In this document: piece by piece, positions 5,474-18,762 of the stretch | Layout: each line of letters starts with the position of its first letter | Numbering within the stretch: position 1 is the first letter of the stretch | DNA from: Halopseudomonas pachastrellae | GTDB taxonomy: Bacteria; Pseudomonadota; Gammaproteobacteria; Pseudomonadales; Pseudomonadaceae | Length of the DNA: 64,000 nt | Assembly (NCBI RefSeq): GCF_900114765.1 | Contig: NZ_FOUD01000001.1 | Coordinates: 1 to 64,000 of the forward strand | Direction of reading: 5' to 3' | Translations under genes and position numbers: made by a program | The notes under the pieces: generated by a model | Databases searched by the model: none | Told to the model about the DNA's origin: nothing | What the model saw: the letters and a program-made list of their open reading frames with translations, nothing else

Positions 5474-5610
5474 TGGATCATCGTACGAGAACGCTTTATC
5501 GCAGTATAGCGCGCCTGAGGTGGCTAGTGGCTATCTGATGTTGCGGAATGAACCACCGGCGCGCAGGGCACTCACAAGCTAGTAAGCTTCCCCAGGAACA
5601 GGAGAGCGCC

Positions 5611-6108
5611 ATGGCGGACATGGAACAGGTGATGCGTATCGTCAGCAGTACGCTGGCCGACGAGTTTTCCGATCTGACTGACATTGAGCAGGGCACGCGC
5701 GTCACCCTGCGGCTGTTGCTGGCGGCGCTGCTGGGTGGCGTGCTGGGCCTGGAGCGCGAGCGCCAGGGCAAGGCTGCCGGTGTGCGTACCCACATGCTGG
5801 TATGCCTTGGCGCTGCGCTGTTTGTGCTGGTGCCGGATGTGGCCGGGGCGCTGGATGACGCCATGAGTCGGGTGATTCAGGGCGTGGTTGCCGGCGTTGG
5901 CTTTCTTGGGGCGGGCACTATTCTCAAGGGCGATGCCGCCAATCAGGTCAAAGGGCTGACCACTGCCGCCGGTATCTGGCTGACGGCGGCGATTGGCGTC
6001 ACCATTGGCCTGGGGCACCAGGCAACCGGGCTGCTCTGCGCGGCTCTGGCGCTGATTATTCTCCACTTGGTGCCGATGCTGTTCCGCTTTCCGCAATCCC
6101 CCTCCTGA
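5611..6108 (+). CDS. MgtC/SapB-family membrane protein
   Basis: This 165-residue protein carries the MgtC/SapB N-terminal membrane domain: RVTLRLLLAALLGGVLGLERE, then RTHMLVCLGAALFVLV, then the glycine-rich GVVAGVGFLGAGTILK and the helix GLTTAAGIWLTAAIGVTIGLG. It lacks the C-terminal ACT-like domain of longer MgtC proteins, so it resembles short YhiD-type members. MgtC proteins are linked to growth in low magnesium and to control of ATP synthase; which applies here cannot be told. The start at 5611 has AGGAG about seven bases upstream; an ATG at 5548 has no such support. It stands alone between the divergent cyclase gene and a 251-base gap. Confidence 0.88.
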   Translation: MADMEQVMRIVSSTLADEFSDLTDIEQGTRVTLRLLLAALLGGVLGLERERQGKAAGVRTHMLVCLGAALFVLVPDVAGALDDAMSRVIQGVVAGVGFLGAGTILKGDAANQVKGLTTAAGIWLTAAIGVTIGLGHQATGLLCAALALIILHLVPMLFRFPQSPS

Positions 6109-6309: not shown

Positions 6310-6342
6310 ATTACATGTAATTCATTGCTTTGTTACATGTGA
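6310..6342. promoter_or_regulatory. Paired TTACATGT sites, probable operator of the psp-flotillin cluster
   Basis: A perfect 12-base palindrome, ATTACATGTAAT (6310-6321), is followed by GTTACATGTGAT (6332-6343), so TTACATGT occurs twice 22 bases apart (6311 and 6333). That is close to two helical turns, so both sites face the same side of the DNA. They lie only 17-49 bases before the first codon of the cluster at 6360, where a bound protein could control transcription. No other sequence in the 6109-6359 gap stood out. The binder is inferred, not shown; the RHH-like N-terminus of the next gene is a candidate. Confidence 0.5.
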
Positions 6343-6359
6343 TGAACTAGTCTCGCTTC

Positions 6360-6980
6360 ATGGAAAAGAAATCATCTGCCTACTATCAACGACTTTATCG
6401 CCAGCGCTTGCGTGAGCAGGGGTTGGTCAAGAAGGAAGTCTGGATATTGCCCGAGCATGCCTCTGCGCTCATGGCAGTAGAACGAAAGCTGCGCCAGCCG
6501 ATGGCCCAGCTGGACGCAATGGAGAAGGAGATAGACATGAGCATGCAGCAGGTTTGGAGTGCCACGGCGTTGCATAAGGCCTTGGTTGGTACCGAGTTGT
6601 TTCAGGGCAAGCGCGCCAGTGTGGAGCTAATTGACGGCAGTGAAGCCAGCTTGCACGTCACCATGCACGAATACGGTGATTTGCCGCTGTTCATTGCCGT
6701 GTTTGGCGAGCAGATCATCGTTGAAGCCCTGTTGTGGCCGGTGAGTGACGTGCGTGATCTGACTAAGTTCAACGAAGAGGTGCTGCGCACCCACAAGCTC
6801 TTTCCGCTGTCGAGTATCGGCCTTGAGCGCCTGGCCGACGGCACCGATTGCTACACCATGTTTGGCGCCTTGAGTTCTGGCTCGGCCCTGTCTGACGTGG
6901 TGTTCGAGATCGAGCTGCTGGCCGATAACGTGATCAAGGCCACCGAGGCCTACGAGAATCATCTGGCGATGCCAGCCTGA
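6360..6980 (+). CDS. DUF2170 (YjfI-like) protein with RHH-like N-terminus
   Basis: This 206-residue protein opens with a basic segment, about 1-50 (YYQRLYRQRLREQGLVKKE), whose VKKEVWILPEHASALMAVERK looks like the strand plus first helix of a ribbon-helix-helix DNA-binding fold. Residues about 62-206 (MQQVWSATALHKAL to EAYENHLAMPA) match the DUF2170/YjfI family, small acidic proteins encoded next to PspA homologues and compared by some to secretion chaperones. The start ATG at 6360 has no clear Shine-Dalgarno sequence, so translation may be leaderless. It begins a six-gene run; 14 bases separate it from pspA. A role as chaperone, partner or autoregulator of the PspA-like protein is inference. 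Confidence 0.75.
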   Translation: MEKKSSAYYQRLYRQRLREQGLVKKEVWILPEHASALMAVERKLRQPMAQLDAMEKEIDMSMQQVWSATALHKALVGTELFQGKRASVELIDGSEASLHVTMHEYGDLPLFIAVFGEQIIVEALLWPVSDVRDLTKFNEEVLRTHKLFPLSSIGLERLADGTDCYTMFGALSSGSALSDVVFEIELLADNVIKATEAYENHLAMPA

Positions 6981-6994
6981 TAAGGAGAAAGCTG

Positions 6995-7690
6995 ATGAAC
7001 GTGTGGAGCAAATTGCTGACTGCAATGCGCGGTGGTGCCCATGAGGCGGGTGAGGCGCTGGTCGATAGCCAGGCGCTGCGTATCCTCGATCAGGAAATCC
7101 GCGACGCCGATGCCGAGTTGCACCGGTCCCGCGAGGCGCTGGCCAATATCATGGCCAAACAGAAGCTGGCAGCGGAAAAGCTGAGTAAAGTTTCGGCGCG
7201 CATCGCCGAGTACGAGCAGTACGCGCTGAAGGCGCTGGAGTCCGGTAACGAGACGCTGGCGCGCGAAGTTGCCGAGAAGATCGCGGGCCTGGAAAACGAG
7301 GCAAAGCTGGAGTCCGAACAGGCCGAGGCCTACGCCACCAGCGTGGCCAATCTGCGTCAGGCGGTGCAGCAGGCCGAAGGCAATATCAAGCGCTTGAAGC
7401 AACAGGTTGATGTGGTCAAGGCGACTGAAAGCGTGCAGAAGGCGCAGCTTGCGGTATCGCAGCGTTACGGCGGGTCTCAGGCCAAGATGCACACCGCGCT
7501 GGAATCGCTGGAGCGTATCAAGCAGAAGCAGGCCGAGCGTGGCGCGCGCATGGAGGCTGCAGCCGAGCTGGCGGTTGAGGGCAGCCCCGACCAGGCGCTT
7601 GAAGAGAAACTGCGGGCGGCGGGCATTACGCCGGCCTCCGGCAGCGCAGACAGTGTGCTTGAGCGTTTGAAGCAGCGCTCCGACAGCTAG
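6995..7690 (+). CDS. PspA/IM30-family membrane-remodelling protein
   Basis: This 231-residue protein is almost wholly predicted helix with long coiled-coil stretches (about 25-165), as in PspA, Vipp1/IM30 and their ESCRT-III relatives. The N-terminal WSKLLTAMRGGAHEAGEALVD is amphipathic, like the membrane-binding helix of the family, and LDQEIRDADAELHRSREAL, then KAKMHTALESLERIKQKQAE near the end, fit the family's helical pattern. Such proteins coat damaged inner membranes and limit proton leakage. AAGGAG lies just before the ATG. No pspB, pspC or pspF is present; its partners here are DUF2170, YqiJ, flotillin and an AAA ATPase, the E. coli YjfJ-type context rather than the classical psp operon. 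Confidence 0.88.
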   Translation: MNVWSKLLTAMRGGAHEAGEALVDSQALRILDQEIRDADAELHRSREALANIMAKQKLAAEKLSKVSARIAEYEQYALKALESGNETLAREVAEKIAGLENEAKLESEQAEAYATSVANLRQAVQQAEGNIKRLKQQVDVVKATESVQKAQLAVSQRYGGSQAKMHTALESLERIKQKQAERGARMEAAAELAVEGSPDQALEEKLRAAGITPASGSADSVLERLKQRSDS

Positions 7691-7721
7691 GTGCTGTGAG
7701 CGGTCAGGGAGGGGGATCGGG

Positions 7722-8363
7722 ATGGAGCTTTTCTTTCAGACGTCGCTGACGTTTCCGGTAGTGTTGTTCAGCTTCATGCTGTGCGTGGCCATGCTGTACT
7801 GGCTGACGGTGGCGCTGGGCGCAGTGGATGTTGACGTGCTGGACACCGGTGGTGACGGCGGCATGGACGATCCGTCCAATGCCGAAGGCCTCGGCGGCCT
7901 GCTGATGAAGTTGGGGCTGCATGACGTCCCGGTCACCCTGGTGCTGACGGTGCTGGTGTTCTTTGCCTGGCTGGCCAGTTACTTCACCCAGCTGTTGTTG
8001 CTGGGGTGGCTGCCGCTGGGCTTGCTGCGTTATCCCCTCGGATTGGTGGTCATCGTGCTGGCGCTGGTGGTGGCGGTGCCTGTCACCCGGCTGGTGGTGG
8101 CGCCATTACGGCCGTTGTTTCGCAAGGCGCTGGGCTCGACCACGCGCTCGTTGCTGGGGCAGGTGGTCGTGGTGCGCTCGCCGCTGGTCAGTGATCGACT
8201 GGGCGAGGCGGTGATGGAAGACGGCGGTGCGGGGCTGATCCTGCGTGTACGCGCGGACCCGGCGCTGGGGTTCAAGCGCGGCGACCGTCTGGTCCTGCTG
8301 GAATACCTGGAGGCAGAGCACGCCTATCGGGTTATCGGTGAAGACGAATTTAACGGGAAATAG
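7722..8363 (+). CDS. yqiJ: YqiJ-like membrane protein with C-terminal OB fold (NfeD-like)
   Basis: This 213-residue protein has a first membrane segment near residues 8-35 (VVLFSFMLCVAMLYWLTVAL) and a group of two or three more at about 68-125 (LVLTVLVFFAWLASYF to VVIVLALVVAVPV). The C-terminal 75 residues (LLGQVVVVRSPLVSDRLGEA, VRADPALGFKRGDRLVLLEY) form a small all-beta OB-like domain. That is the YqiJ layout, related to NfeD proteins that pair with flotillins. It sits 54 bases before the flotillin gene, the same pairing as yqiJ-yqiK of E. coli. A partner role in organising flotillin assemblies is expected from the family; it is not shown here. Confidence 0.85.
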   Translation: MELFFQTSLTFPVVLFSFMLCVAMLYWLTVALGAVDVDVLDTGGDGGMDDPSNAEGLGGLLMKLGLHDVPVTLVLTVLVFFAWLASYFTQLLLLGWLPLGLLRYPLGLVVIVLALVVAVPVTRLVVAPLRPLFRKALGSTTRSLLGQVVVVRSPLVSDRLGEAVMEDGGAGLILRVRADPALGFKRGDRLVLLEYLEAEHAYRVIGEDEFNGK

Positions 8364-8417
8364 TGCGAGGCGGCACTGTTCCGGTGCTGTGTCGCGCTGC
8401 AAAGGAGTTTGAGCGTA

Positions 8418-10466
8418 ATGAGTATGTCCATGGTAATGCCCTTCCTGATCGGGGTTGGTATTGTCTTTCTGCTGATCGTCGGTTTTTTTGTCCTTTTCAA
8501 TGCGTTCTACATCAAGGTGCCCCAGGGCACGGCGTTGATCGTGAACGACATGAGCTCTACCCCCAAGGTGCACTTCACCGGGGCGCTGGTTTATCCGGTG
8601 ATCTACAAGAAAGAGTTCATGAAAATCTCCCTGCTGACGCTCGAAGTGGATCGGCGCGGCAAGGACGGGCTTATCTGTCAGGACAATCTGCGTGCTGACA
8701 TTACGGTCGCCTTCTACCTGCGGGTAAACGAGACCCAGCAGGACGTACTCAAGGTGGCCAAGGCGATCGGGGTGGATCGCGCCTCTGATCGCACTGCGGT
8801 CAATGAGTTGTTCAACGCCAAATTCTCAGAGGCGCTGAAAACGGTCGGTAAAAAATTCGAGTTTGTCAGCCTGTTTGAAGAGCGCCAGAACTTCCGTGAC
8901 CGCATCATCGAGGTCATCGGCAACGACCTCAACGGCTATGTGCTTGAAGACGTTGCGATTGACTACCTTGAGCAAACACCACGCACCTCGCTCGACCCCA
9001 CCAACATTCTTGATTCCCAGGGTATTCGCAAGATTACCGAGCTGACCGCGACCCAGAACGTGATCACCAACGAGCTGGAGCGTAACGAAGAGCTCGCGAT
9101 CATGAAGAAGAACGTCGAGACCCGCGAAGCGACGCTGGCACTGGAGCGCCAACAGGCGGATGCCGAGGCGCGCCAGGAGCGTGAAATCGAAACTATCCGG
9201 GCGCGTGAACAGGCCGAAACCGTCAAGGTGCAGGAAGAGGAGCGCCTCAAGGCCGAACAGGCGCGTATTCAGACTCAGCAGGATCTGGACATTCGCAGCG
9301 AGAACCACCACCGCGAAGTCGAGGTGGCTCAGCAGAATCGTCAGCGCGCTGTGGTGATTGAGGTCGAGAAGGTCACCCGGGCGCGTGATCTGGAAGTGGT
9401 TGCCCGTGAGCGTGAAGTCGAGCTGCAGCGCATCGAGAAAGAGAAGGCGCTGGAGGAAGAGCGCAAGAATATTGCCGGCGTGATTCGTGAGCGTGTTGCG
9501 GTCGAGAAAACCGTGGCGCAGGAAGAAGAGCGCATCAAGGAAGTACGCGAAGTCGCCGAGGCCGATCGCCAGAAGCAGGTTCAGGTGCTCAATGCACAGG
9601 CTGAGGCCGAACAGGAACTGGTAAGGCAGGTCAAGCAGGCCGAGGCCGATGAAACCAAGTCTCGCCACAAGGCGGTCGAGATGAACAATCTGGCCCAGGC
9701 CGAGCTGGAAGCGGCTGCCAAGCAGTCCGAGGCGGCCAAGAAGCGCGCCGAAGGTACGCAGGCAGAAGCTGCGGCCAATGGTCTGGCTGCGGCCCGTGTG
9801 CGCGAAGTTACCGCTGCAGCCAAAGAGAAGGAAGGTCTGGCCGAGGCGCGTATTCAGTCCGAGCAATTGATTGCTCAGGCCAAGGGCGAGCAGGAGCAGG
9901 GGCTGGCGCAGGCGCGGGTGATCGAGGCGCAGGCGGCTGCCAAGGAGAAAGAAGGCCTGGCAGAAGCCAAGGTGCTGGAAGAAAAACTCACCGCCCAAGC
10001 GCGCGGCGAAGAGCAGCTTGGTGTGGCCAAGGCGCGTGCTGCCAAGGATCAGGGACTGGTCGAGGCCGAAGTATTGCTGGAGCGTCTCAACGCCGAAGCC
10101 GAAGGTCTGGGCAAAAAGTTCTCCGCACTCGATGCACTCAGCGCCGATGCTCGTCAGCACGAAGAATTCCGCATGCAGCTTGAGAAGAGCTTCGAAGAAG
10201 CCATGGCCGCCATCGCCGCCAACAAGGACATTGCGCGGGATCAGGCAGAGGTGCTGTCGACAGCACTCGGCAAGGCCAATATCGAGATCGTGGGCGGGGA
10301 GGGTGACTTCTTCAACTCCTTTGCCAAGTCGCTGTCGGTTGGCAAGGCCATTGAAGGTGTGGTCGGCAAGAGCCCGGTGGTGCAGGACGTGCTGCAACGG
10401 CTGCTGGCCGGCCGCGGCAACAGCGATATGCCGAACGTGGCCAACAAGGGCAGCGCAGACGCCTGA
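8418..10466 (+). CDS. yqiK: Flotillin-like YqiK, SPFH-domain membrane scaffold
   Basis: This 682-residue protein has an N-terminal membrane segment (about 8-30, IGVGIVFLLIVGFFVLFNAF), an SPFH/band-7 domain (about 33-200, with VPQGTALIVND and FYLRVNETQQDVLKV) and a very long charged coiled coil (about 200-590). It then has a C-terminal flotillin region ending near ANKDIARDQAEVLSTALGKA. Flotillins form large rings that order membrane patches. AAAGGAG at 8401-8407 supports ATG 8418 with ten bases spacing; an in-frame TTG at 8409 is too close to it. Inside the coiled coil a 40-residue unit is repeated (AAAKEKEGLAEA at 9813 and 9933 in DNA). It lies between yqiJ and the giant ATPase gene. Confidence 0.88.
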   Translation: MSMSMVMPFLIGVGIVFLLIVGFFVLFNAFYIKVPQGTALIVNDMSSTPKVHFTGALVYPVIYKKEFMKISLLTLEVDRRGKDGLICQDNLRADITVAFYLRVNETQQDVLKVAKAIGVDRASDRTAVNELFNAKFSEALKTVGKKFEFVSLFEERQNFRDRIIEVIGNDLNGYVLEDVAIDYLEQTPRTSLDPTNILDSQGIRKITELTATQNVITNELERNEELAIMKKNVETREATLALERQQADAEARQEREIETIRAREQAETVKVQEEERLKAEQARIQTQQDLDIRSENHHREVEVAQQNRQRAVVIEVEKVTRARDLEVVAREREVELQRIEKEKALEEERKNIAGVIRERVAVEKTVAQEEERIKEVREVAEADRQKQVQVLNAQAEAEQELVRQVKQAEADETKSRHKAVEMNNLAQAELEAAAKQSEAAKKRAEGTQAEAAANGLAAARVREVTAAAKEKEGLAEARIQSEQLIAQAKGEQEQGLAQARVIEAQAAAKEKEGLAEAKVLEEKLTAQARGEEQLGVAKARAAKDQGLVEAEVLLERLNAEAEGLGKKFSALDALSADARQHEEFRMQLEKSFEEAMAAIAANKDIARDQAEVLSTALGKANIEIVGGEGDFFNSFAKSLSVGKAIEGVVGKSPVVQDVLQRLLAGRGNSDMPNVANKGSADA

Positions 10467-10482
10467 TACACCTTACCGCTTG

Positions 10483-10505
10483 ACGCCCCGGCACGGCCGG
10501 GGCGT
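10483..10505 (+). terminator. Strong GC hairpin between yqiK and the ATPase gene
   Basis: A perfect ten-base stem, ACGCCCCGGC (10483-10492) with GCCGGGGCGT (10496-10505) around an ACG loop, lies in the 62-base gap after the flotillin stop. No T-run follows, so it may be an attenuator or an RNA-stability hairpin rather than a full terminator. It could lower expression of the downstream ATPase relative to the upstream membrane proteins. Confidence 0.6.
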
Positions 10506-10528
10506 TGCATTGCTAAGCCAATTCGGGA

Positions 10529-13500
10529 ATGACGAGGATGTCAGAGTCAGCAGGCGAAGATCAGGCACAGGGCCTGGTTGATCGGGCTGTAGCTGAAGGT
10601 GGTGCCTACGAGGTACTGCACAAGCGGCTGCTGGAGCAGGGCCGGCAACTGGCCGGTCTGGCCGAGGCGCTGAATGCCCAGCGGCAGCAGGAATTCGGCA
10701 GTCAGCCGATCGAGGTGATTGGTCGCACGCGCGTGCGCACCGAGAACAACTGCATCGCACGCGATATCGCCCAGGTCGGCGGGCTGATGCTGTTCGGCTA
10801 CAACGTGTTTATCGGGCTCAAGCAGGAAACCCGAGTACAGGACGTTTTCTCCCTTTATCGGCTAGTGCAGCAGGATGGCGAATACGACGCCCAGCCTGTT
10901 GATCCGGCTGGCAGCTTTCTGGCCGAGGCCAGCTTCGTCAACGACTTTGACGAGCTTTATCGTTACTACAAGAACACGCGGCTGCTGCAACTGAGCGTGC
11001 GCGAAGGCAAGCTGCTCGCGGCCTTTCAGATTGGCGAGCGGATCAGCGATGTGCGGGTCTTCCGCTGGTCGGTGTCCGCTGACGGCAGTCAGGTGCGCTA
11101 CATCGATAATCGCGGTGAGCGCGATATCCAGTTGCCGCGGCCCTTTGATTTCGAGTGGACTGCTGCCGGCCGTGACGCTGTGGTGCAGGGCCGGCACTCG
11201 CATTTCAATATTCTCGATACCCTGTTTGTCGATACCCTGGGTGGTGATCTGACCGTTAAGGTGGAGAACAACACCGAGGACGGCCTGGGTATCTACCGCG
11301 AGCCGGTCGCCGACAAGACCCAGTCGCTTAATGATGTACAGATTGAGTACGCCCACCTGGGCTCGCTGATTCTGCTGAAGGTGCTGCCGTACCGCGAGGA
11401 GCAGTGGCGGTATCTGGTATTCAATACCCTGACGCGCAAGGTGCAGCGCATCGATGCGATTGGACAGGCCTGCGTGCAGTTGCCGGAAGATCACGGCATC
11501 ATTTTCCCTGGCGGCTGCTATCTGCAAAGTGGCGAGTACCGCACCTTTGATCAGCCCATGGACGGCATGCGCTTCAAGCGCTCTGTCCGCTCGCCCAACG
11601 GCGAGGATGTGCAGTACGTTTTCTATCACCCGGAGCAGGGCCGTTCGGCGCTATTTACCTACAACCTGATCAGTCGTGAATTGCAGAGCCCGCAATTTGG
11701 CCACGGGCATGCGCGGCTGGCTGATGGGCGCATGGTGATCTTTTCTGCCGAAGGCGATGAGCCGACGCGCATTCACCCGATGCAGGTCTGGCAGACGCCT
11801 TTTTATACCGACGAGCACGCCGCCGCTCAGCCGCTACGCGGCGGTTTCTTTGGACGCATAGGTAACGCCGAGCTGGTGCGCGGTGTTTCTGACCTGCTGA
11901 ACCTGGCGCGTGAGATCGACAGCAATGAGGTCTCATTGCAGCGTTACGCGCTGTTGTGCCAGGAAACCCAACGCCTGTTCGATGCCTATTATTGGCTCAG
12001 TGATGAGGCCTGTGGCGGCGTTGCTCCTTTGCTGCGGCAGATATCCTCCAGCGCGGCCATGGTGCTGGACGAGTTTGAGAAGGTCGAGAGCATTCGGCAG
12101 CAATCAGCACGGGCCATGACGGAGGCGCAGACGCGTCAGCAGGAGCTGATGTCAGGCCTGTCGGTGCAAGAGTTTACTGATGTTCAGGCTTACGTTGATG
12201 CCCTGGGGGCGCTCAACGCCCAACGCGGCAAGCTGCTTACCATTCGCGAGTACCGCCACATCAATGTCGAGCAGATCGACGAGATGGAAGCGCAGCTGCT
12301 GGCCGAGCACGAGCGGCTGGCAGCTGAGGTGTCCAGTTTTCTCGCCGGCGAGCAGGCGCTGGCGCCCTATCACCATCAGCTGCAGGAGCTGGATGCGAGC
12401 GCCGAGCAGGCTGAAACGGTCACCCAGCTGGCTGAACCGCTGGAGCAACTGACCGCGATGGCGGCGGGGCTGGACATGCTGTCCGAGCTGATGGCGTCGC
12501 TGCGCATTGATGACGCTACCCAGCGCACCCGCGTGGTTGAGGCCATCTCCGAGCTGTATGCCAAGCTCAACCAGTCTAAGGCGCGGGCCGAGTTGCGGCG
12601 CAAGTCGCTGGGCTCGGCCGAGCAGGTCGCGCAATTCGGCGCCCAGTTCAAGCTGTTCAGCCAGGCCATTACCAACGCATTGGCGCTGGCGCAGGATCCG
12701 GAGAGCTGCGATGAGCAGCTGTCGCGCCTGCTGGTGCAGCTCGAAGAGCTGGAAAGCCAGTTTGGCGGGCACGAGGCGTTTCTCAGTGACATCCTCGATA
12801 AGCGCGAAGAGTTGCTTGAGACCTTTGAAGCCCATCGCCAGCGCTTGCTGGATGAGCGCCAGCGCCGTGCCCAGGGGCTGCAGGACGCGGCGGTACGCAT
12901 CATCGACAGCTTGCCACGGCGCACCGGTCGGCTGACCGAGCCGGATTTGCTGAACGCCTTTTTTGCCACCGACCCGCTGATTCTCAAGCTGCGTGAACTG
13001 ATCGAACGGCTGCGCGCGCTGCACGACAACGTCAAGGCTGATGACATTGAGGCGCGGCTCAAGGGCGCGCGGGATCAGGCAGTGCGTGGTCTGCGCGACA
13101 AGCGTGAACTGTTCGAAGGTGGCGGCAATGTCATCCGGTTGGGGCCGCGTCACCGCTTCAGCGTCAATGCCCAGGAACTCGACCTGACCCTGCTGCCCCG
13201 TGGTGACTCGCTGAGCTTGCACCTGACGGGCACCGACTATTTTGAACCCTTGGTCAACGACGAGCTGGACGCCCTGCGTGACTACTGGGATGGCGGCCTG
13301 CTGTCCGAGTCGCCGCAGCTCTATCGCGCCGAGTACCTCGCCGGTGAGGTTATCGCGCTGGCCCAGCGGGCAGAGGCGGGCTTGAGCATGGAGCTGCTGC
13401 ATCAGCAGTTGCTTGAGCCGGAGCAACTGGTGCGCACGCTGCGCGAGATCGCGACGCCGCGCTATCGCGAGGGTTACGAGAAGGGTATTCACGATCACGA

Positions 13501-15754
13501 CGCGGCGCTGATTCTGGCGCAGCTGTTGCCACTGCTCGCCAGTGCCGGCCTGCTACGGTTTGATCCGCAGGCACGGGCGCTGGCAATGCTGTTCTGGGGG
13601 CAGAGTGCCGATACGCAGGCGGTGTCCGGTTGGGCTGAACGGGCTGCCGCCGTGTTGCAGATTCAGCAGCTGTTCGGGCGTGCCGATGCGCTGCTGCAAC
13701 TGCAGGGTGAGGTGCAGTCCCGTCTTGTTGATTGGCTGCAAGAGCGATTGATCGAGGCCGACAGCAGGACGCTGGAAGCCGCAGCGGCCTGGTTGGTCGA
13801 GTGGCTGGCCGAGCCGCAGCCGGTCTGGCAGGTCAGCCGTTATGCCCAGCAACTGTGTGTCGGGCTGCAGGAGCATCTGGCGCCACTCGGTCTGTGGGAC
13901 AGCTGCATGCAGTCGGTTGAGCGGCTTGCCGGGGCGCCGGGGCAGCAGTGGCAATTCTTGCAGCACTGGTTTAGCGGTCTGTGCGAGCAGGAGGCCTTTG
14001 CTCCGCTGCGTCGATACGTGCCCGAGGCGGTTGCCTTGTGTCTGCTGCAGCCGCAGGTTCCGGTGACCGTTGTCGAGGTTGATCTGCGCTTTGCGGTGTC
14101 CGGCCTGCTGGGGCAGCACCCACGCGTGCAGGACGGCGCGCTGACGCTGGCGGTGGACGAGTTCTTCAGCCGCTTGCGTCAGCACCGGCAGGATTTTCAG
14201 CCGGGGCTGGAGCGCTATCAGCAGTTGCGCCAGCAGTTGCTCGATGAGCAGCGCAAGACGTTGCGTCTGGCTGAGTTCAAGCCGCGCCCGCTCACCTCCT
14301 TTGTGCGTAACCGCCTGATCAACGATGTGTATCTGGGCGTTATCGGCGACAACCTGGCCAAGCAGATGGGTACCGTGGGTGAGGGGCGGCGTTCGGACCT
14401 GAACGGTCTGCTGATGCTGATTTCCCCGCCCGGTTACGGCAAAACCACCCTGATGGAATATGTGGCGCACGCGCTGGGCCTGGTGTTCATGAAGATCAAC
14501 GGGCCGGCGCTGGGGCACGAGGTGCGCTCGCTGGATCCGGCGCAGGCACCGGATGCGACCGCGGCGCAGGAGCTGGTCAAGCTCAATCTGGCGCTGGAGA
14601 TGGGCAACAATGTCATGCTGTATGTCGATGACATCCAGCACACCCATCCGGAGTTTCTGCAGAAATTCATCTCGCTGTGCGACGGCACCCGCCGCATTGA
14701 AGGCGTCTGGAAGGGGCGCACGCGCACTTATGACATGCGCGGTCGCAAGTTTGCCGTTGTCATGGCCGGTAACCCCTACACCGAGTCCGGTGAGGTGTTC
14801 CGCATTCCGGACATGCTGGCCAACCGTGCCGACATTTATAACCTCGGCGACACCTTGGCGGGCATGAACGATGTGTTCGCGCTGAGCTACATCGAAAACA
14901 GTCTGACTTCAAACGCTGTGCTTGCGCCCCTGGCTGGTCGCGACCTGAATGATCTGTACCGGTTGGTGGCCAAGGCCGAAGGCAAGCCATTCTCTGCCAA
15001 TGAACTGAGTTACGACTACAGCGCGGCCGAGATCAACGACATGGTTGCCACCCTGCAGCGCATGATGCAGTTGCGTGACGTGGTGCTGCGGGTCAACCAG
15101 CAGTACATCGCCAGCGCCGCGCAGGATGATCGCTATCGCACCGAGCCGCCGTTCAAGTTGCAGGGCAGTTATCGCAACATGAACAAGCTGGCGGAGAAGG
15201 TGTCGGCCGTCATGAACGAGCAGGAGTTGCAGCAACTGGTCGATGATCACTACCAGGGCGAGTCGCAGCTGCTGACCACCGGAGCCGAGGAAAACCTGCT
15301 CAAGCTGGCCGAGTTGCGCGGCACGCTGAATGCAGAACGTGCCCAGCGCTGGGAGCAGATTAAGGCGGACTTTCTACGCAATCGCGCCATGGGCGGTGAT
15401 GACGCGGATGTGGGCAAGCGCGTGGTCGGTCAGCTCAACGATCTGGTGCAGAGCGTGCGCGCCTTGGCCGGTTCTGGCCAGCCGGAGGTGGCTGTGCCCT
15501 GGGATGAGCTGCTCGCCGCGTTGCAGTCACTGCACAAGCTGAGCCCCAAGGTGCGTGTCGTGATGCCGCCCCAGCAGTTGATTCAACAGATGCTCGACGG
15601 GCTGTCGGACAGCATGCGCGCAACCGTAACGCCGCTGGCCGATGTAATGGACCGTCAGGTCGTGGCCGGGCGGGAAGCACAGACCCGGCTGCTCGACATT
15701 GTGCGGCAACTGAAGGTCGTGACCCTAGATGACCAGGATGACAGCAAGCCATGA
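10529..15754 (+). CDS. Giant coiled-coil AAA ATPase (annotated in databases as DNA repair ATPase type)
   Basis: This 1741-residue protein has an N-terminal part, about 1-450, of beta-rich sequence without a domain I can name. A helical coiled-coil part follows, about 480-870, and further helical sequence runs to about 1260. An AAA module lies near 1290-1450. Walker A is ISPPGYGKTT (Lys1305) and Walker B is LYVDDIQ (Asp1367, Asp1368); VVMAGNPYTESGEVFR supplies the sensor-1 asparagine region. Homologues are often labelled DNA repair ATPase, but no nuclease or DNA-binding domain is evident. Its place after PspA and flotillin genes suggests a membrane or chaperone task. Start 10529 or the in-frame ATG 10538 are both possible. 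The stop overlaps the next start (ATGA). Confidence 0.8.
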   Translation: MTRMSESAGEDQAQGLVDRAVAEGGAYEVLHKRLLEQGRQLAGLAEALNAQRQQEFGSQPIEVIGRTRVRTENNCIARDIAQVGGLMLFGYNVFIGLKQETRVQDVFSLYRLVQQDGEYDAQPVDPAGSFLAEASFVNDFDELYRYYKNTRLLQLSVREGKLLAAFQIGERISDVRVFRWSVSADGSQVRYIDNRGERDIQLPRPFDFEWTAAGRDAVVQGRHSHFNILDTLFVDTLGGDLTVKVENNTEDGLGIYREPVADKTQSLNDVQIEYAHLGSLILLKVLPYREEQWRYLVFNTLTRKVQRIDAIGQACVQLPEDHGIIFPGGCYLQSGEYRTFDQPMDGMRFKRSVRSPNGEDVQYVFYHPEQGRSALFTYNLISRELQSPQFGHGHARLADGRMVIFSAEGDEPTRIHPMQVWQTPFYTDEHAAAQPLRGGFFGRIGNAELVRGVSDLLNLAREIDSNEVSLQRYALLCQETQRLFDAYYWLSDEACGGVAPLLRQISSSAAMVLDEFEKVESIRQQSARAMTEAQTRQQELMSGLSVQEFTDVQAYVDALGALNAQRGKLLTIREYRHINVEQIDEMEAQLLAEHERLAAEVSSFLAGEQALAPYHHQLQELDASAEQAETVTQLAEPLEQLTAMAAGLDMLSELMASLRIDDATQRTRVVEAISELYAKLNQSKARAELRRKSLGSAEQVAQFGAQFKLFSQAITNALALAQDPESCDEQLSRLLVQLEELESQFGGHEAFLSDILDKREELLETFEAHRQRLLDERQRRAQGLQDAAVRIIDSLPRRTGRLTEPDLLNAFFATDPLILKLRELIERLRALHDNVKADDIEARLKGARDQAVRGLRDKRELFEGGGNVIRLGPRHRFSVNAQELDLTLLPRGDSLSLHLTGTDYFEPLVNDELDALRDYWDGGLLSESPQLYRAEYLAGEVIALAQRAEAGLSMELLHQQLLEPEQLVRTLREIATPRYREGYEKGIHDHDAALILAQLLPLLASAGLLRFDPQARALAMLFWGQSADTQAVSGWAERAAAVLQIQQLFGRADALLQLQGEVQSRLVDWLQERLIEADSRTLEAAAAWLVEWLAEPQPVWQVSRYAQQLCVGLQEHLAPLGLWDSCMQSVERLAGAPGQQWQFLQHWFSGLCEQEAFAPLRRYVPEAVALCLLQPQVPVTVVEVDLRFAVSGLLGQHPRVQDGALTLAVDEFFSRLRQHRQDFQPGLERYQQLRQQLLDEQRKTLRLAEFKPRPLTSFVRNRLINDVYLGVIGDNLAKQMGTVGEGRRSDLNGLLMLISPPGYGKTTLMEYVAHALGLVFMKINGPALGHEVRSLDPAQAPDATAAQELVKLNLALEMGNNVMLYVDDIQHTHPEFLQKFISLCDGTRRIEGVWKGRTRTYDMRGRKFAVVMAGNPYTESGEVFRIPDMLANRADIYNLGDTLAGMNDVFALSYIENSLTSNAVLAPLAGRDLNDLYRLVAKAEGKPFSANELSYDYSAAEINDMVATLQRMMQLRDVVLRVNQQYIASAAQDDRYRTEPPFKLQGSYRNMNKLAEKVSAVMNEQELQQLVDDHYQGESQLLTTGAEENLLKLAELRGTLNAERAQRWEQIKADFLRNRAMGGDDADVGKRVVGQLNDLVQSVRALAGSGQPEVAVPWDELLAALQSLHKLSPKVRVVMPPQQLIQQMLDGLSDSMRATVTPLADVMDRQVVAGREAQTRLLDIVRQLKVVTLDDQDDSKP

Positions 15755-16437
15755 TGGACTTTCAACAACTTGACCAGGTGCTGCGCGACAGCGTGGCCGA
15801 TTTGCGTCTGAGCAACGACGAGCGGGTTGAGCTGCGTGAGCTGGGTGGTGGGCTTGAGCCTGACCGCATCCGCTTTTTGCGAAATCGCGCCTTTGCACTG
15901 GTGCGTGAGCTTGCGGCAGAGCCGGAGAACGTCATGCCGGCGCTGAAATGGCTTGAGCAGGTGGTGAAGACGCTGGATGCCTCGCAGGTCAACGATGTGC
16001 AGGTGGCCAGCGCCCACTTCAGCCCGGGCGAGAGCTGCCGGCGACGGATTCTGGACTTGTGCAATCAGGTGCGTGACAGCCTGAGTATCTGTGTCTTTAC
16101 CATTTCCGATGACCGTCTCAGCCGCGCGGTGCTGGCCTGCCATCAGCGCGGGGTCAAGGTGCGGATCATCAGCGACCATGAGAAGCAGCACGACATGGGC
16201 AGCGATATCGCCATGCTGCGTGATGAGGGCATTCCCCTGCGGGTCGATCCCGGTCCGTATCATATGCACCACAAGTTCGCCCTGTTTGATGATCGGGTTC
16301 TGCTTAACGGCAGCTTCAATTGGACGCGCAGCGCCAGTGATTACAATCAGGAGAATCTGTTGGTGATCGACCATGCGCCGCTGGTTGCCGACTACGTACG
16401 CGAGTTCGAAGACCTCTGGCAGCGTTTCGCGGTGTGA
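15751..16437 (+). CDS. Phospholipase-D-like protein with one HKD motif
   Basis: This 228-residue cytoplasmic protein has a helical N-terminal region (about 1-85) and one PLD-type domain (about 88-225). The catalytic motif is MHHKFALFDDRVLLNGSFNW: His173, Lys175 and Asp180 in HxK(x)4D, then the GSFNW element. One HKD per chain implies dimerisation to build the active site, as in mitoPLD/Zucchini and small bacterial Nuc-type enzymes. Members cut phospholipids or nucleic acids, and some act only as scaffolds. ATG 15751 overlaps the ATPase stop by four bases, so the two are translationally coupled; ATG 15754 is an alternative. The likely substrate, cardiolipin or nucleic acid, cannot be told from sequence. 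Confidence 0.82.
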   Translation: MMDFQQLDQVLRDSVADLRLSNDERVELRELGGGLEPDRIRFLRNRAFALVRELAAEPENVMPALKWLEQVVKTLDASQVNDVQVASAHFSPGESCRRRILDLCNQVRDSLSICVFTISDDRLSRAVLACHQRGVKVRIISDHEKQHDMGSDIAMLRDEGIPLRVDPGPYHMHHKFALFDDRVLLNGSFNWTRSASDYNQENLLVIDHAPLVADYVREFEDLWQRFAV

Positions 16438-16501: not shown

Positions 16502-17041
16502 ATGGCACTGCAGGCAACTCCCTATAAGGTTCAGCTGAACATTACCGATACCGATCTGGGTGTGTATGAGACGGTACGCATGACCGTTGCCCGCCATCCG
16601 TCGGAGACCGAGGAGCGGCTGGCGGTACGCTTGCTGGCCTATGCGCTGTGGTATCAGGAGCGCCTGGCATTTGGCCGCGGGCTCTCGGATGTCGATGAGC
16701 CTGCGTTGTGGCTCAAGACCCTGGATGACCGCGTCGAGCACTGGATCGAGGTCGGTCAGCCGGATGCCGAGCGTATGACTTGGTGCTCGCGTCGCGCCCA
16801 GAAAGTGTCCGTGCTGGTGTACGGCAGTACCCGGGTCTGGCAGAACAAGCAACTGTCAGCAGCCGCAACTCTGAGCAACCTGAATGTGGCGGCGCTTGCT
16901 GAAGAGCCGTTGCAGGCGCTCGCGACTGATCTGCCGCGCAGCATCGATTGGGGCGTGATGATCAGCGACGGCGTGCTTTATGTCAGTGACGGTGATCAGC
17001 AGCACGAGCTGACCCTGGAGTGGCTGCAGGGGCAGCGCTGA
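16502..17041 (+). CDS. yaeQ: YaeQ family protein
   Basis: This 179-residue protein (MALQATPYKVQLNITDTD, with RMTVARHPSETEERLAVRLLAYALWY) matches YaeQ, a conserved proteobacterial protein with a PD-(D/E)XK nuclease-like fold and no firmly known job. YaeQ homologues were reported to relieve loss of RfaH in enteric bacteria. AGGA lies eight bases before ATG 16502; the upstream in-frame start at 16373 would run back into the PLD-like gene. It is 64 bases after that gene, and its TGA overlaps the recJ start by one base (TGATG), so the two are probably co-transcribed. Confidence 0.87.
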   Translation: MALQATPYKVQLNITDTDLGVYETVRMTVARHPSETEERLAVRLLAYALWYQERLAFGRGLSDVDEPALWLKTLDDRVEHWIEVGQPDAERMTWCSRRAQKVSVLVYGSTRVWQNKQLSAAATLSNLNVAALAEEPLQALATDLPRSIDWGVMISDGVLYVSDGDQQHELTLEWLQGQR

Positions 17042-18762
17042 TGCGCATCGAAACCCGCCCGTTGCCTGAGGTGTTGCCGGCGCTCGGGGAGCTGCCGCCA
17101 CTGCTCAGTCGGCTTTACGCCGCCCGTGGTGTGCTCAGTGAGGCCGAGCTGGATCGCCGCTTGCAGGCATTGCTGCCCTACATTGGGCTGCGCGGCATTG
17201 CGCAGGCGGTTGCGGTGCTGGAATCAGCGCTGCGCGAGCGGCGCTCGATACTGATCGTGGGCGACTTTGATGCCGATGGCGCCACCGCCAGCAGCGTTGC
17301 CGTGCTGGCCCTGCGACAGCTGGGGGCGGCGCAGGTGGATTACCTGGTACCCAACCGTTTTGAGTACGGCTACGGGCTGACGCCAGAGATTGTCGAGGTA
17401 GCGCTGACCCGTCGCCCGGACGTGCTGGTGACCGTGGATAACGGCATCTCCAGTATTGAAGGCGTAGCGGCGGCCAGGGCTGCCGGCCTGCAGGTGGTGG
17501 TTACCGACCACCATTTGCCGGGTGCGCAACTCCCCGAGGCCAACGCCATCGTCAACCCCAGCCAGCCGGGCTGCGATTTTCCAAGCAAGGCGATGGCGGG
17601 CGTGGGGGTCATTTTCTACGTCATGCTGGCGCTGCGAGCAGCGCTGCGTGAGAGCGGCTGGTTTGCCGAAACCGGCCGGGCCGAACCCAATTTGGCCGAG
17701 TTGCTGGATCTGGTGGCGTTGGGCACCGTGGCCGACGTGGTGCCGCTGGATGCCAACAATCGCATTATGGTGCACCAGGGGCTGGCGCGTATTCGGGCAG
17801 GCCGCTGCCGTCCCGGTATTCGTGCGCTGCTTGAGGTTGCCGGCAGACCGCGCGAGCGTCTGGTGTCAACCGATCTGGGCTTTATTGTTGGTCCGCGTCT
17901 GAACGCGGCGGGGCGCCTGGACGATATCAGCCTGGGTATCGAGTGCCTGTTGACCGAGGACGAGGGGCTGGCGCTGGATATGGCGCGTGAGCTGGATGGC
18001 CTGAATCGCGACCGCAAGGCCATCGAGCGCGATATGCAGCAGCAGGCGCTGAAAACCCTGGAGGCCATGCAGCTCGACGAGCAGGACCTGCCCTTTGGTC
18101 TGTGCCTGTTCGATGCCGAGTGGCACCAGGGCGTTATCGGCATTCTCGCTTCGCGCCTGAAGGATCGCTTTCACCGCCCGGTGATTGCCTTTGCCGATGC
18201 CGGAGAGGGCATGATAAAGGGCTCGGCCCGCTCGATACCGGGCCTGCATATCCGGGACGCGCTGGACGCCGTTGCGGCCCAGCACCCGGAGCTGATCAGC
18301 AAGTTCGGCGGCCACGCCATGGCGGCGGGCATGTCTCTGCGCGAGACGGATTTTCCGGCCTTTGCCGCGGCTTTCGATGCCGAGGTGCGGCGTCAGCTGC
18401 AACCGGCAGACCTGACCGGGCGGTTGTTGTCGGACGGGCAGCTTGAGGTTGCCGAGCTGTCCCTGGATATGGCGGCATCGCTGCGCGAAGCCGGCCCCTG
18501 GGGGCAGCACTTCCCAGAGCCGTTGTTCCATGGCGAGTTTGAGCTGGTGCAGCAACGGCTGGTGGGTGAGCGCCACCTGAAGATGCTGCTGCGCGCCGCT
18601 GGCAGCCCCGAGGTGTACGATGCCATTGCCTTCAATATCGATCCGCAGCTCTGGCCGGACCCGAGCGTGCGCCACGTGCTTTTGGCCTATACGCTGGATA
18701 TCAACGAGTTCCGTGGCCGCCGCAGTCTGCAGCTGATGGTACGGCACCTGGAGCGCGGTTGA
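17041..18762 (+). CDS. recJ: Single-stranded-DNA exonuclease RecJ
   Basis: RecJ is a 5'-3' exonuclease on single-stranded DNA used in recombination (RecF pathway), mismatch repair and base-excision repair. The 573-residue product is of normal length. Motif I is VGDFDADGATA, the DHH motif is VVTDHHLPG, the later LDLVALGTVADVVPLD supplies another metal ligand, and the DHHA1 domain carries SKFGGHAMAAGMSL. A C-terminal OB-like region follows. ATG 17041 overlaps the yaeQ stop by one base; an earlier in-frame start at 17020 would lengthen the overlap. The 212-base gap after it holds no gene, only a short palindrome (GTTGTACAAC, 18830-18839). Confidence 0.96.
   Translation: MRIETRPLPEVLPALGELPPLLSRLYAARGVLSEAELDRRLQALLPYIGLRGIAQAVAVLESALRERRSILIVGDFDADGATASSVAVLALRQLGAAQVDYLVPNRFEYGYGLTPEIVEVALTRRPDVLVTVDNGISSIEGVAAARAAGLQVVVTDHHLPGAQLPEANAIVNPSQPGCDFPSKAMAGVGVIFYVMLALRAALRESGWFAETGRAEPNLAELLDLVALGTVADVVPLDANNRIMVHQGLARIRAGRCRPGIRALLEVAGRPRERLVSTDLGFIVGPRLNAAGRLDDISLGIECLLTEDEGLALDMARELDGLNRDRKAIERDMQQQALKTLEAMQLDEQDLPFGLCLFDAEWHQGVIGILASRLKDRFHRPVIAFADAGEGMIKGSARSIPGLHIRDALDAVAAQHPELISKFGGHAMAAGMSLRETDFPAFAAAFDAEVRRQLQPADLTGRLLSDGQLEVAELSLDMAASLREAGPWGQHFPEPLFHGEFELVQQRLVGERHLKMLLRAAGSPEVYDAIAFNIDPQLWPDPSVRHVLLAYTLDINEFRGRRSLQLMVRHLERG

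Follow-up and report, generated by a model that had tools for sequence, protein, structure and literature searches.

Conserved palindromes and a repressor-like domain of BacA suggest a control circuit for the bacABCDEF operon of Halopseudomonas pachastrellae

How a bac operon is switched on is the question raised by a stretch of 64,000 nucleotides from Halopseudomonas pachastrellae (RefSeq assembly GCF_900114765.1, contig NZ_FOUD01000001.1, positions 1 to 64,000; called the window in what follows). The six-gene cluster that it carries is the already described bacABCDEF operon type of Pseudomonas aeruginosa: the six genes are alike by family and order, and BacA of the window passes the NCBIfam model 'biofilm formation regulator BacA' with 349.7 bits (cut-off 300). 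The name bac was given in 2008 to a cluster of four genes around PA3731 (PMC2587700) and was widened in 2024 to six genes, bacA to bacF, which form one transcript by reverse-transcription PCR in strain PA14 (PMC10948618). In a bacA transposon mutant, BacB to BacF rose 6.1- to 13.5-fold, and a structure was solved for the DUF2170 part of BacA (PMC10948618). Biofilm, swarming and rhamnolipid phenotypes have been published for bac mutants, and the suggestion in a preliminary description of this DNA that the cluster may be functionally undescribed is not right.

The gene set is known, and what is new here concerns the control of the operon, namely a predicted repressor domain, operator-like palindromes and a predicted internal start. 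No account of a BacA repressor domain and its operators was found in the openly readable literature: the available text of PMC10948618 mentions neither the N-terminal domain of BacA nor the palindromes nor a second start, and that of Ravi et al. (2024; PMC11237479) neither a fused repressor domain nor an operator. Judging from the sequence features set out below, we consider it probable that BacA represses its own operon, that its chaperone half reads PspA and that bacA gives rise to two products.

Palindromes and promoter upstream of bacA

A palindrome with the consensus TYACATGTRA stands in two copies 5' of bacA, usually 22-24 bp apart; the copies in the window are referred to as O1 and O2 (Table 1). 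Within 120 bases 5' of bacA, at least one site with at most one mismatch is present in 58 of 59 loci, compared with 6 of 11,419 control windows taken from the same loci, and at least two such sites are present in 50 of 59 loci, compared with none of the 11,419. The operator counts, and the counts of translation starts given below, cover 59 of the 61 bacA loci; L039 and L045, for which the anchor string failed, were left out; in L039, two ACATGT cores are present, at -47 and -25. By number, single sites in the window do not exceed chance expectation (2 with at most one mismatch, shuffle mean 3.13); the evidence for O1 and O2 lies in their position and conservation.

The exact O1-O2 tandem occurs once in the genome from which the window comes (3.93 Mb in 55 contigs; both strands were read, and the sites are palindromic). 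Of 37 genomes in the genus, 8 have the gene for the large ATPase BacE; 7 of these 8 contain the exact tandem, which is found in none of the 29 genomes without the gene. Over the family, the tandem is present in 33 of 248 genomes (the 7 included), at a total of 37 sites, 33 of which lie directly 5' of a DUF2170 gene with a PspA gene behind it; the same pattern written backwards, used as a control, gave no occurrence in either search. These operator-like palindromes are conserved and, in the genomes searched, nearly confined to bacA-type genes. Two tandem sites in one AT-rich genus (L240 site 3288 and L248 site 3360) stand directly in front of a lemA-like gene, with a membrane peptidase-like gene behind it, both names being read from translations, and the lemA-like gene is a possible second target of the tandem in that genus.

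A sigma70-type promoter read by eye would embrace O2 and would place the start of transcription near position 6360, the A of the bacA ATG. The spacer of a promoter is a classical place for a repressor. In a column profile built from 54 of the 59 loci, TA stands 15 bases after the start of the site in 37 of 54, and the palindrome core falls within the spacer in 35 of the loci in which a mechanical search finds the arrangement TTG-N16-18-TA. This prediction differs from the P. aeruginosa papers, in which a putative sigma54 site is named for bac (PMC2587700, PMC10948618). A sigma54 promoter might thus drive the operon, with BacA acting indirectly or post-transcriptionally as suggested for P. aeruginosa, and those papers argue that the CesT-like fold includes post-transcriptional regulators. 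However, a sigma54 pattern, taken as a consensus with at most three mismatches, was found within 200 bases 5' in only 2 of 59 loci, none identified as P. aeruginosa, and the sigma70-like arrangement is commoner; we regard this explanation as improbable.

The N-terminal domain and the two starts of BacA

The N-terminal domain of BacA appears to be related to small repressors, which it matches weakly but repeatedly. Nine positions in residues 1-47 are invariant across 36 sequences. The NCBIfam family UrfF ('plasmid repression protein F') is matched by 23 of 25 members at E <=0.1 (best 3.5e-6), the Pfam MazE-like family by 17 of 25 N-terminal parts at E <=1 (best 0.0015) and a PHROG 'transcriptional regulator' by 5 of 25 at E <=0.1 (best 0.0052). 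The N-terminal part of the window's own BacA falls below the curated cut-offs, with 12.9 of 22 bits for MazE-like and 19 of 100 bits for UrfF, both of which we take to be ribbon-helix-helix families. Codons 2-47 were compared with those of the window in 45 of the 58 other loci, those sharing at least 25 of 47 identities with it; codon positions 1, 2 and 3 show 422, 179 and 942 differences, a pattern which indicates that the N-terminal stretch evolves as coding sequence. The solved chain 8q8o aligns to BacA residues 64-203 only, and the N-terminal domain is absent from it.

The domain and the palindromes can be compared across the phylum in an evenly drawn sample of 398 genomes. This sample holds 50 DUF2170 genes outside the window, of which 44 are without the domain, three match it marginally and three clearly. 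In the 44, neither an exact site nor two sites with at most one mismatch were found (0/44 each), and the three marginal genes have no exact site; two of the three with a clear domain have the palindrome pair. The yjfI-yjfJ operons, in which a DUF2170 gene is likewise followed by a PspA gene, differ from bac in that most of the DUF2170 genes examined have neither the domain nor an exact palindrome. Some DUF2170 proteins of other lineages (L163-L167 and L194) have different short N-terminal extensions that look by eye like small DNA-binding domains; Pfam recognised none of those scanned, and no useful match came from a Pfam scan of the N-terminal part in five DUF2170 proteins other than BacA. 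A separate ribbon-helix-helix gene has been remarked in another operon type (PMC11237479).

Further information comes from three Pseudomonas plasmids, pQBR103, pPma4326F and pPlaYM7902A, on which a BacA-type gene and a PspA gene precede a yjf-like cassette. This cassette has DUF2491 and DUF350 genes in all three, and also DUF1190 and glutathionylspermidine synthase family genes in pQBR103 and pPma4326F, the flanks available for pPlaYM7902A being shorter. On each plasmid three sites lie 5' of the BacA-type gene, one of them an exact palindrome and two with a single mismatch. Since the palindromes are kept in front of a different cassette, they go with BacA and not with the genes behind it. Among loci whose domain has the KKE form, 49 of 51 have at least two sites, compared with 1 of 8 with the KKD or KRE form, although this is a weak test because the latter forms are mostly from one lineage.

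A regulator other than BacA could in principle bind the palindromes, and locus L045 would fit this, as it keeps two perfect palindromes despite a truncated BacA N-terminal domain. Against it stand the absence of the tandem from the genus genomes without the ATPase gene, the position of most family sites before bacA-type genes, the difference between the KKE and the KKD/KRE loci, and the palindromes before the fused gene even where a different cassette follows. This alternative has, in our view, a small chance of being right.

We infer from the sequence that bacA yields two products, a repressor-chaperone and the chaperone alone. The full-length start has a Shine-Dalgarno energy at or below -6 kcal/mol in only 2 of 59 loci (+0.4 in the window). 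The internal start reaches this level in 49 of 59, compared with 330 of 2360 control windows and with 29 of 41 starts of bacB. The energy of the internal start is the best among all candidate starts in the linker, the controls were chosen alike, and two of the 59 loci without a linker start codon were counted as misses. By alignment, the chain 8q8o begins one or two residues from the internal start. The size of 16 kDa given for PA3732 (PMC2587700) suggests that this gene was annotated from the internal start.

A proposed circuit

In the circuit that we propose, the bac operon would be a Psp-type membrane-maintenance system, with BacB as PspA coat, BacD as flotillin scaffold, BacC as YqiJ-like membrane partner, BacE as AAA ATPase and, in some lineages, BacF as a MitoPLD-like HKD enzyme. 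The N-terminal domain of BacA would bind O1, beside the -35 box, and O2, in the promoter spacer, and operator-bound BacA would block transcription of the operon, bacA included. The CesT-like C-terminal half would bind a partner, most likely BacB. BacB is the best candidate because a BacA-BacB complex has been predicted by AlphaFold2 with a probability of 0.981 (PMC13092808) and because unpublished results for a strong BacA-BacB interaction are mentioned in PMC10948618. Damage to the membrane would alter the state or amount of PspA, BacA would leave the operators and the operon would be made; the direction of this switch between PspA and BacA is a guess. The C-terminal half alone, made from the internal ribosome site, may serve as a PspA chaperone or as a tuner of the repressor. 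Three elements of this circuit are inferences: the binding of O1 and O2 by BacA itself, the role of PspA as signal and the making of both products. The chances seem evenly balanced for the more specific version, in which the repressor-chaperone comes from a leaderless start and is accompanied by free chaperone, the module has become attached to different PspA cassettes and PspA lifts the repression.

Several observations weigh against this circuit. The promoter hexamers of the window are weak, each matching at three of six positions, and another pair with the same score, lying further 5' in the window, was selected by the mechanical search; the arrangement TTG-N16-18-TA was found by that search in 42 of 59 loci (201 of 2950 controls), and for the P. 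aeruginosa gene a sigma54 promoter is the published proposal. Four of the 37 tandem sites in the family, all in one AT-rich genus, are not at bacA. L168 encodes a clear relative of the domain (E 8e-11) with PspA nearby and has no TYACATGTRA site upstream, so that its sites, if any, must differ from this consensus, and G411, a genus genome with the operon, has one site only. In L045, BacA has lost most of its N-terminal domain, yet both palindromes have been altered alike: two perfect, identical copies of TCACGCGTGA, 24 bases apart and without the ACATGT core, occupy the usual position of the pair (L045:5701-5734). The number of sites on pQBR103, three with at most one mismatch, is not in itself unusual (22 of 200 shuffles). 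In the window, bacE likewise starts without a Shine-Dalgarno sequence (0.7 kcal/mol), and the absence of one at bacA is therefore no proof of a leaderless message. As for the domain, a profile of the BacA N-terminal part found no credible relative among solved structures, and the AlphaFold model shows two helices (6-19 and 31-45) without a strand between them at 23-30, with lower confidence in this part (block means 60-82 over residues 1-50). A single-chain model may miss a strand that pairs between subunits. With two helices, no strand and lower confidence in the model, the ribbon-helix-helix fold is unconfirmed.

A further comparison is with the PspF-PspABC system of Escherichia coli, which likewise has a PspA coat protein and a PspA partner that controls transcription. 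In E. coli, however, PspA restrains an activator (PMC2587700), whereas the proposal for bac is a fusion of repressor and chaperone. BacB also differs from PspA of the E. coli type in failing the equivalog model TIGR02977, with 18.9 of 242.95 bits.

Composition of the operon, the roles of BacE and BacF, and the meaning of the circuit

The six genes lie on the same strand, and bacE and bacF share four bases (15751-15754); the open reading frames bear out the preliminary description on both points (Table 1). Its family labels agree with Pfam, the YqiJ and band-7 matches being below curated cut-offs. In particular, the Band_7 match of BacD (20.5 bits against a cut-off of 23.6) appears solely when residues 1-264 are scanned alone, the whole protein having no Pfam match. 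In BacE, DUF3686, DUF7902 and AAA_5 are matched with E-values of 2.7e-200, 1.5e-29 and 5.9e-7. The neighbourhood of yaeQ and recJ, which the preliminary description gives for a similar run in P. aeruginosa, holds for the window: 3' of bacF are a YaeQ gene, which ends at 17041, and a RecJ gene at 17020-18762. An MgtC-family gene (5548-6108, same strand) lies just 5' of the operon. The nearest named locus among the relatives listed is from Pseudomonas abyssi, with 97% identity in the best ATPase segment. A second, more distant PspA family gene occurs in the source genome outside the bac operon (G000:C9:25228-25899; L251).

Table 1. Features of the bac locus, with positions in the window
Feature	Position	Strand	Details
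O1, operator-like palindrome TTACATGTAA	6311-6320	+	Position and conservation
Predicted sigma70-type promoter	6325-6353	+	TTGCTT 6325-6330, 17-base spacer, TAGTCT 6348-6353; by eye
O2, operator-like palindrome TTACATGTGA	6333-6342	+	Inside predicted promoter spacer
bacA: predicted repressor domain and DUF2170/CesT-like domain	6360-6980	+	206 aa; DUF2170 1.1e-52
N-terminal repressor-like domain of BacA	6360-6500	+	About residues 1-47; DUF2170/CesT-like half 66-202
Internal Shine-Dalgarno-like stretch and in-frame ATG (codon 60, 6537-6539)	6519-6539	+	Predicted start of DUF2170-only product
bacB: PspA/IM30 protein	6995-7690	+	231 aa; PspA_IM30 7.1e-54, 183.2 bits, cut-off 33.9
bacC: YqiJ-like membrane protein	7722-8363	+	213 aa; YqiJ_N E 0.048, below curated cut-off
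bacD: flotillin-like protein	8409-10466	+	685 aa; Band_7 E 5.2e-4, below cut-off
bacE	10529-15754	+	1741 aa; DUF3686 41-488, DUF7902 609-693, AAA match 1295-1418
bacF: single-HKD protein akin to mitochondrial cardiolipin hydrolase	15751-16437	+	228 aa; PLDc_2 2.4e-28

That the genes form a conserved unit is supported by the recurrence of the order over 81 loci and by the single transcript in PA14. The set comprises the window and the best 80 of 435 relatives fetched with the ATPase; its counts are not independent because the loci are in part closely related. The gene orders are ABCDEF (44 loci), ABCDE (17), CDE (15), CDEF (3), BCDE (1) and DEF (1, on a short contig). A bacD relative is present in all 81 and a bacC relative in 80, the short contig being the one without, and bacF, whose relatives were sought by single-sequence search, adjoins bacE in 48. 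In the phylum sample, DUF3686 occurs in 8 of 398 genomes, the window's included, and YqiJ-like and flotillin genes adjoin the ATPase gene in all eight. The DUF2170-PspA pair is inside the ATPase operon in three (the window's genome, G190 and G196), and in the other five (G195, G007, G140, G154 and G050) a DUF2170 gene and a PspA match share one short stretch elsewhere in the genome. An HKD gene is next to the ATPase gene in two of the eight and on another contig in G154, a count limited by the contigs of G195 and G140, which end just 3' of the ATPase gene. Flotillin, YqiJ-like protein and ATPase thus make up the most constant core, which DUF2170 and PspA often accompany; the HKD gene is accessory.

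These counts bear on the suggestion in the preliminary description that all six products make one membrane-repair machine. The conserved unit and the constant company of flotillin and YqiJ-like genes with the ATPase support it in part, but the frequency of PspA and of HKD genes in the same operon does not. The refuting outcome named in that description, ATPase and HKD genes mostly without the PspA and flotillin genes, was not observed for the ATPase. The central idea is also already in print: Ravi et al. described operons of this type, with CesT/Tir-PspA, band-7/flotillin, AAA and YqiJ genes, and proposed an ESCRT-like role (PMC11237479). As in the loci examined here, the HKD gene is present there 'in some Proteobacteria', and short operon forms without PspA occur.

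The more specific form of that idea is that BacE disassembles PspA polymers, as Vps4 does for ESCRT-III, and that BacF acts on cardiolipin at damage sites. By analogy this is a candidate role, and the conservation of the operon is consistent with it. All 81 loci share the same P-loop, Walker-B-like, NPYTES and RADIYNL stretches of BacE, save for V/L/I at 1366 and I/V at 1436, so that BacE is likely to be an active ATPase. The DUF2170-PspA pair, moreover, is present in 8 of 8 genomes with the ATPase, and DUF2170 in only 50 of 398 (C(50,8)/C(398,8) = 3.7e-8, kinship ignored). However, PspA is inside the ATPase operon in just three of these eight. A Pfam scan of BacE at E <=0.1 gave DUF3686, DUF7902, AAA_5, AAA, AAA_22 and RuvB_N and no MIT domain such as Vps4 has, and the AAA module is nearest to AAA_5. 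Solved structures are matched in sequence around the P-loop only, the model of residues 1181-1665 (predicted local distance difference test, pLDDT, 66.8) is too poor to name an AAA clade, and its fold matches (MCM, HslU, NorQ, ClpB and RuvB) all have E >1e-3.

For BacF, the nearest solved relatives are mitochondrial cardiolipin hydrolases (E 1.4e-31), ahead of the bacterial endonuclease 1byr (3.3e-15). Its single HKD motif (aligned hhkfalfdd) lies in a MitoPLD-like core aligned over residues 91-226. The first 100 residues of BacF have no Pfam match. The MitoPLD/Zucchini proteins have an N-terminal membrane anchor and zinc-binding residues. The kinship of BacF with them lends support to the cardiolipin idea, although the mitochondrial family is also credited with nuclease activity, and the infrequent adjacency of HKD and ATPase genes speaks against a joint machine. 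Taken as a whole, we find the disassembly of PspA by BacE, with BacF on cardiolipin, rather doubtful.

Somewhat better placed, and only just short of an even chance, is the possibility that BacE is a chaperone-type ATPase that builds or dismantles the flotillin/YqiJ-like scaffold, PspA being a client that joins through the scaffold. Here the constant core of C, D and E (8 of 8 genomes in the phylum sample, 80 of 81 loci in the closer set) and the 15 of 81 loci with C-D-E and none of A, B and F are in favour, as is the affiliation of AAA_5 with the dynein/MoxR-like group. The substrate, however, cannot be named from gene order. In PMC8926400, pull-down lists are the only place where the P. aeruginosa flotillin PA3729 is named, with values of 1.28- and 1.30-fold relative to the control.

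Other candidate explanations were rejected. A mobile origin found no support, as megablast gave no near match to the whole cluster among 72,556 plasmid records. For a defence role, PADLOC matches were partial only, the best being those of BacF to the MkoC (2.5e-8) and DrmC models, and those of BacB were of coiled-coil type. A role in DNA repair is suggested by the title that Pfam gives to DUF3686, 'ATPase involved in DNA repair'; no evidence for it was found, and DUF3686 is not named in the openly readable literature searched. A tie between the C-terminal tail of BacE (1647-1741) and bacF was likewise rejected: the tail is lost in three loci with bacF (L047, L051 and L059) and present in 16 of 33 without it; in four of these 16 (L086, L088, L093 and L095) the contig continues for less than 2 kb past bacE.

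Additional genes occur within the operon in some lineages. A rhomboid-family gene, absent from the window, stands between bacE and bacF in L018 (15217-15771), L026 (15241-15786) and L047 (14955-15527) according to Pfam, and in L029 and L035 by eye. In Lysobacter, the same place is taken by a TelA (toxic anion resistance) gene (L061:16065-17162, Pfam; L090 by eye), and an additional gene, coding for about 202 residues, lies between the YqiJ-like and flotillin genes in one AT-rich genus (L249:12811-13575).

For the switching on of the known bac gene set, the sequence offers a concrete, testable circuit. If true, this circuit would explain why BacB to BacF have been reported to rise when bacA is mutated. 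It would also mean that a PspA system can be governed by a repressor linked to a chaperone, in place of the PspA-bound activator of E. coli, and the palindrome pair would be a short DNA marker for such operons.

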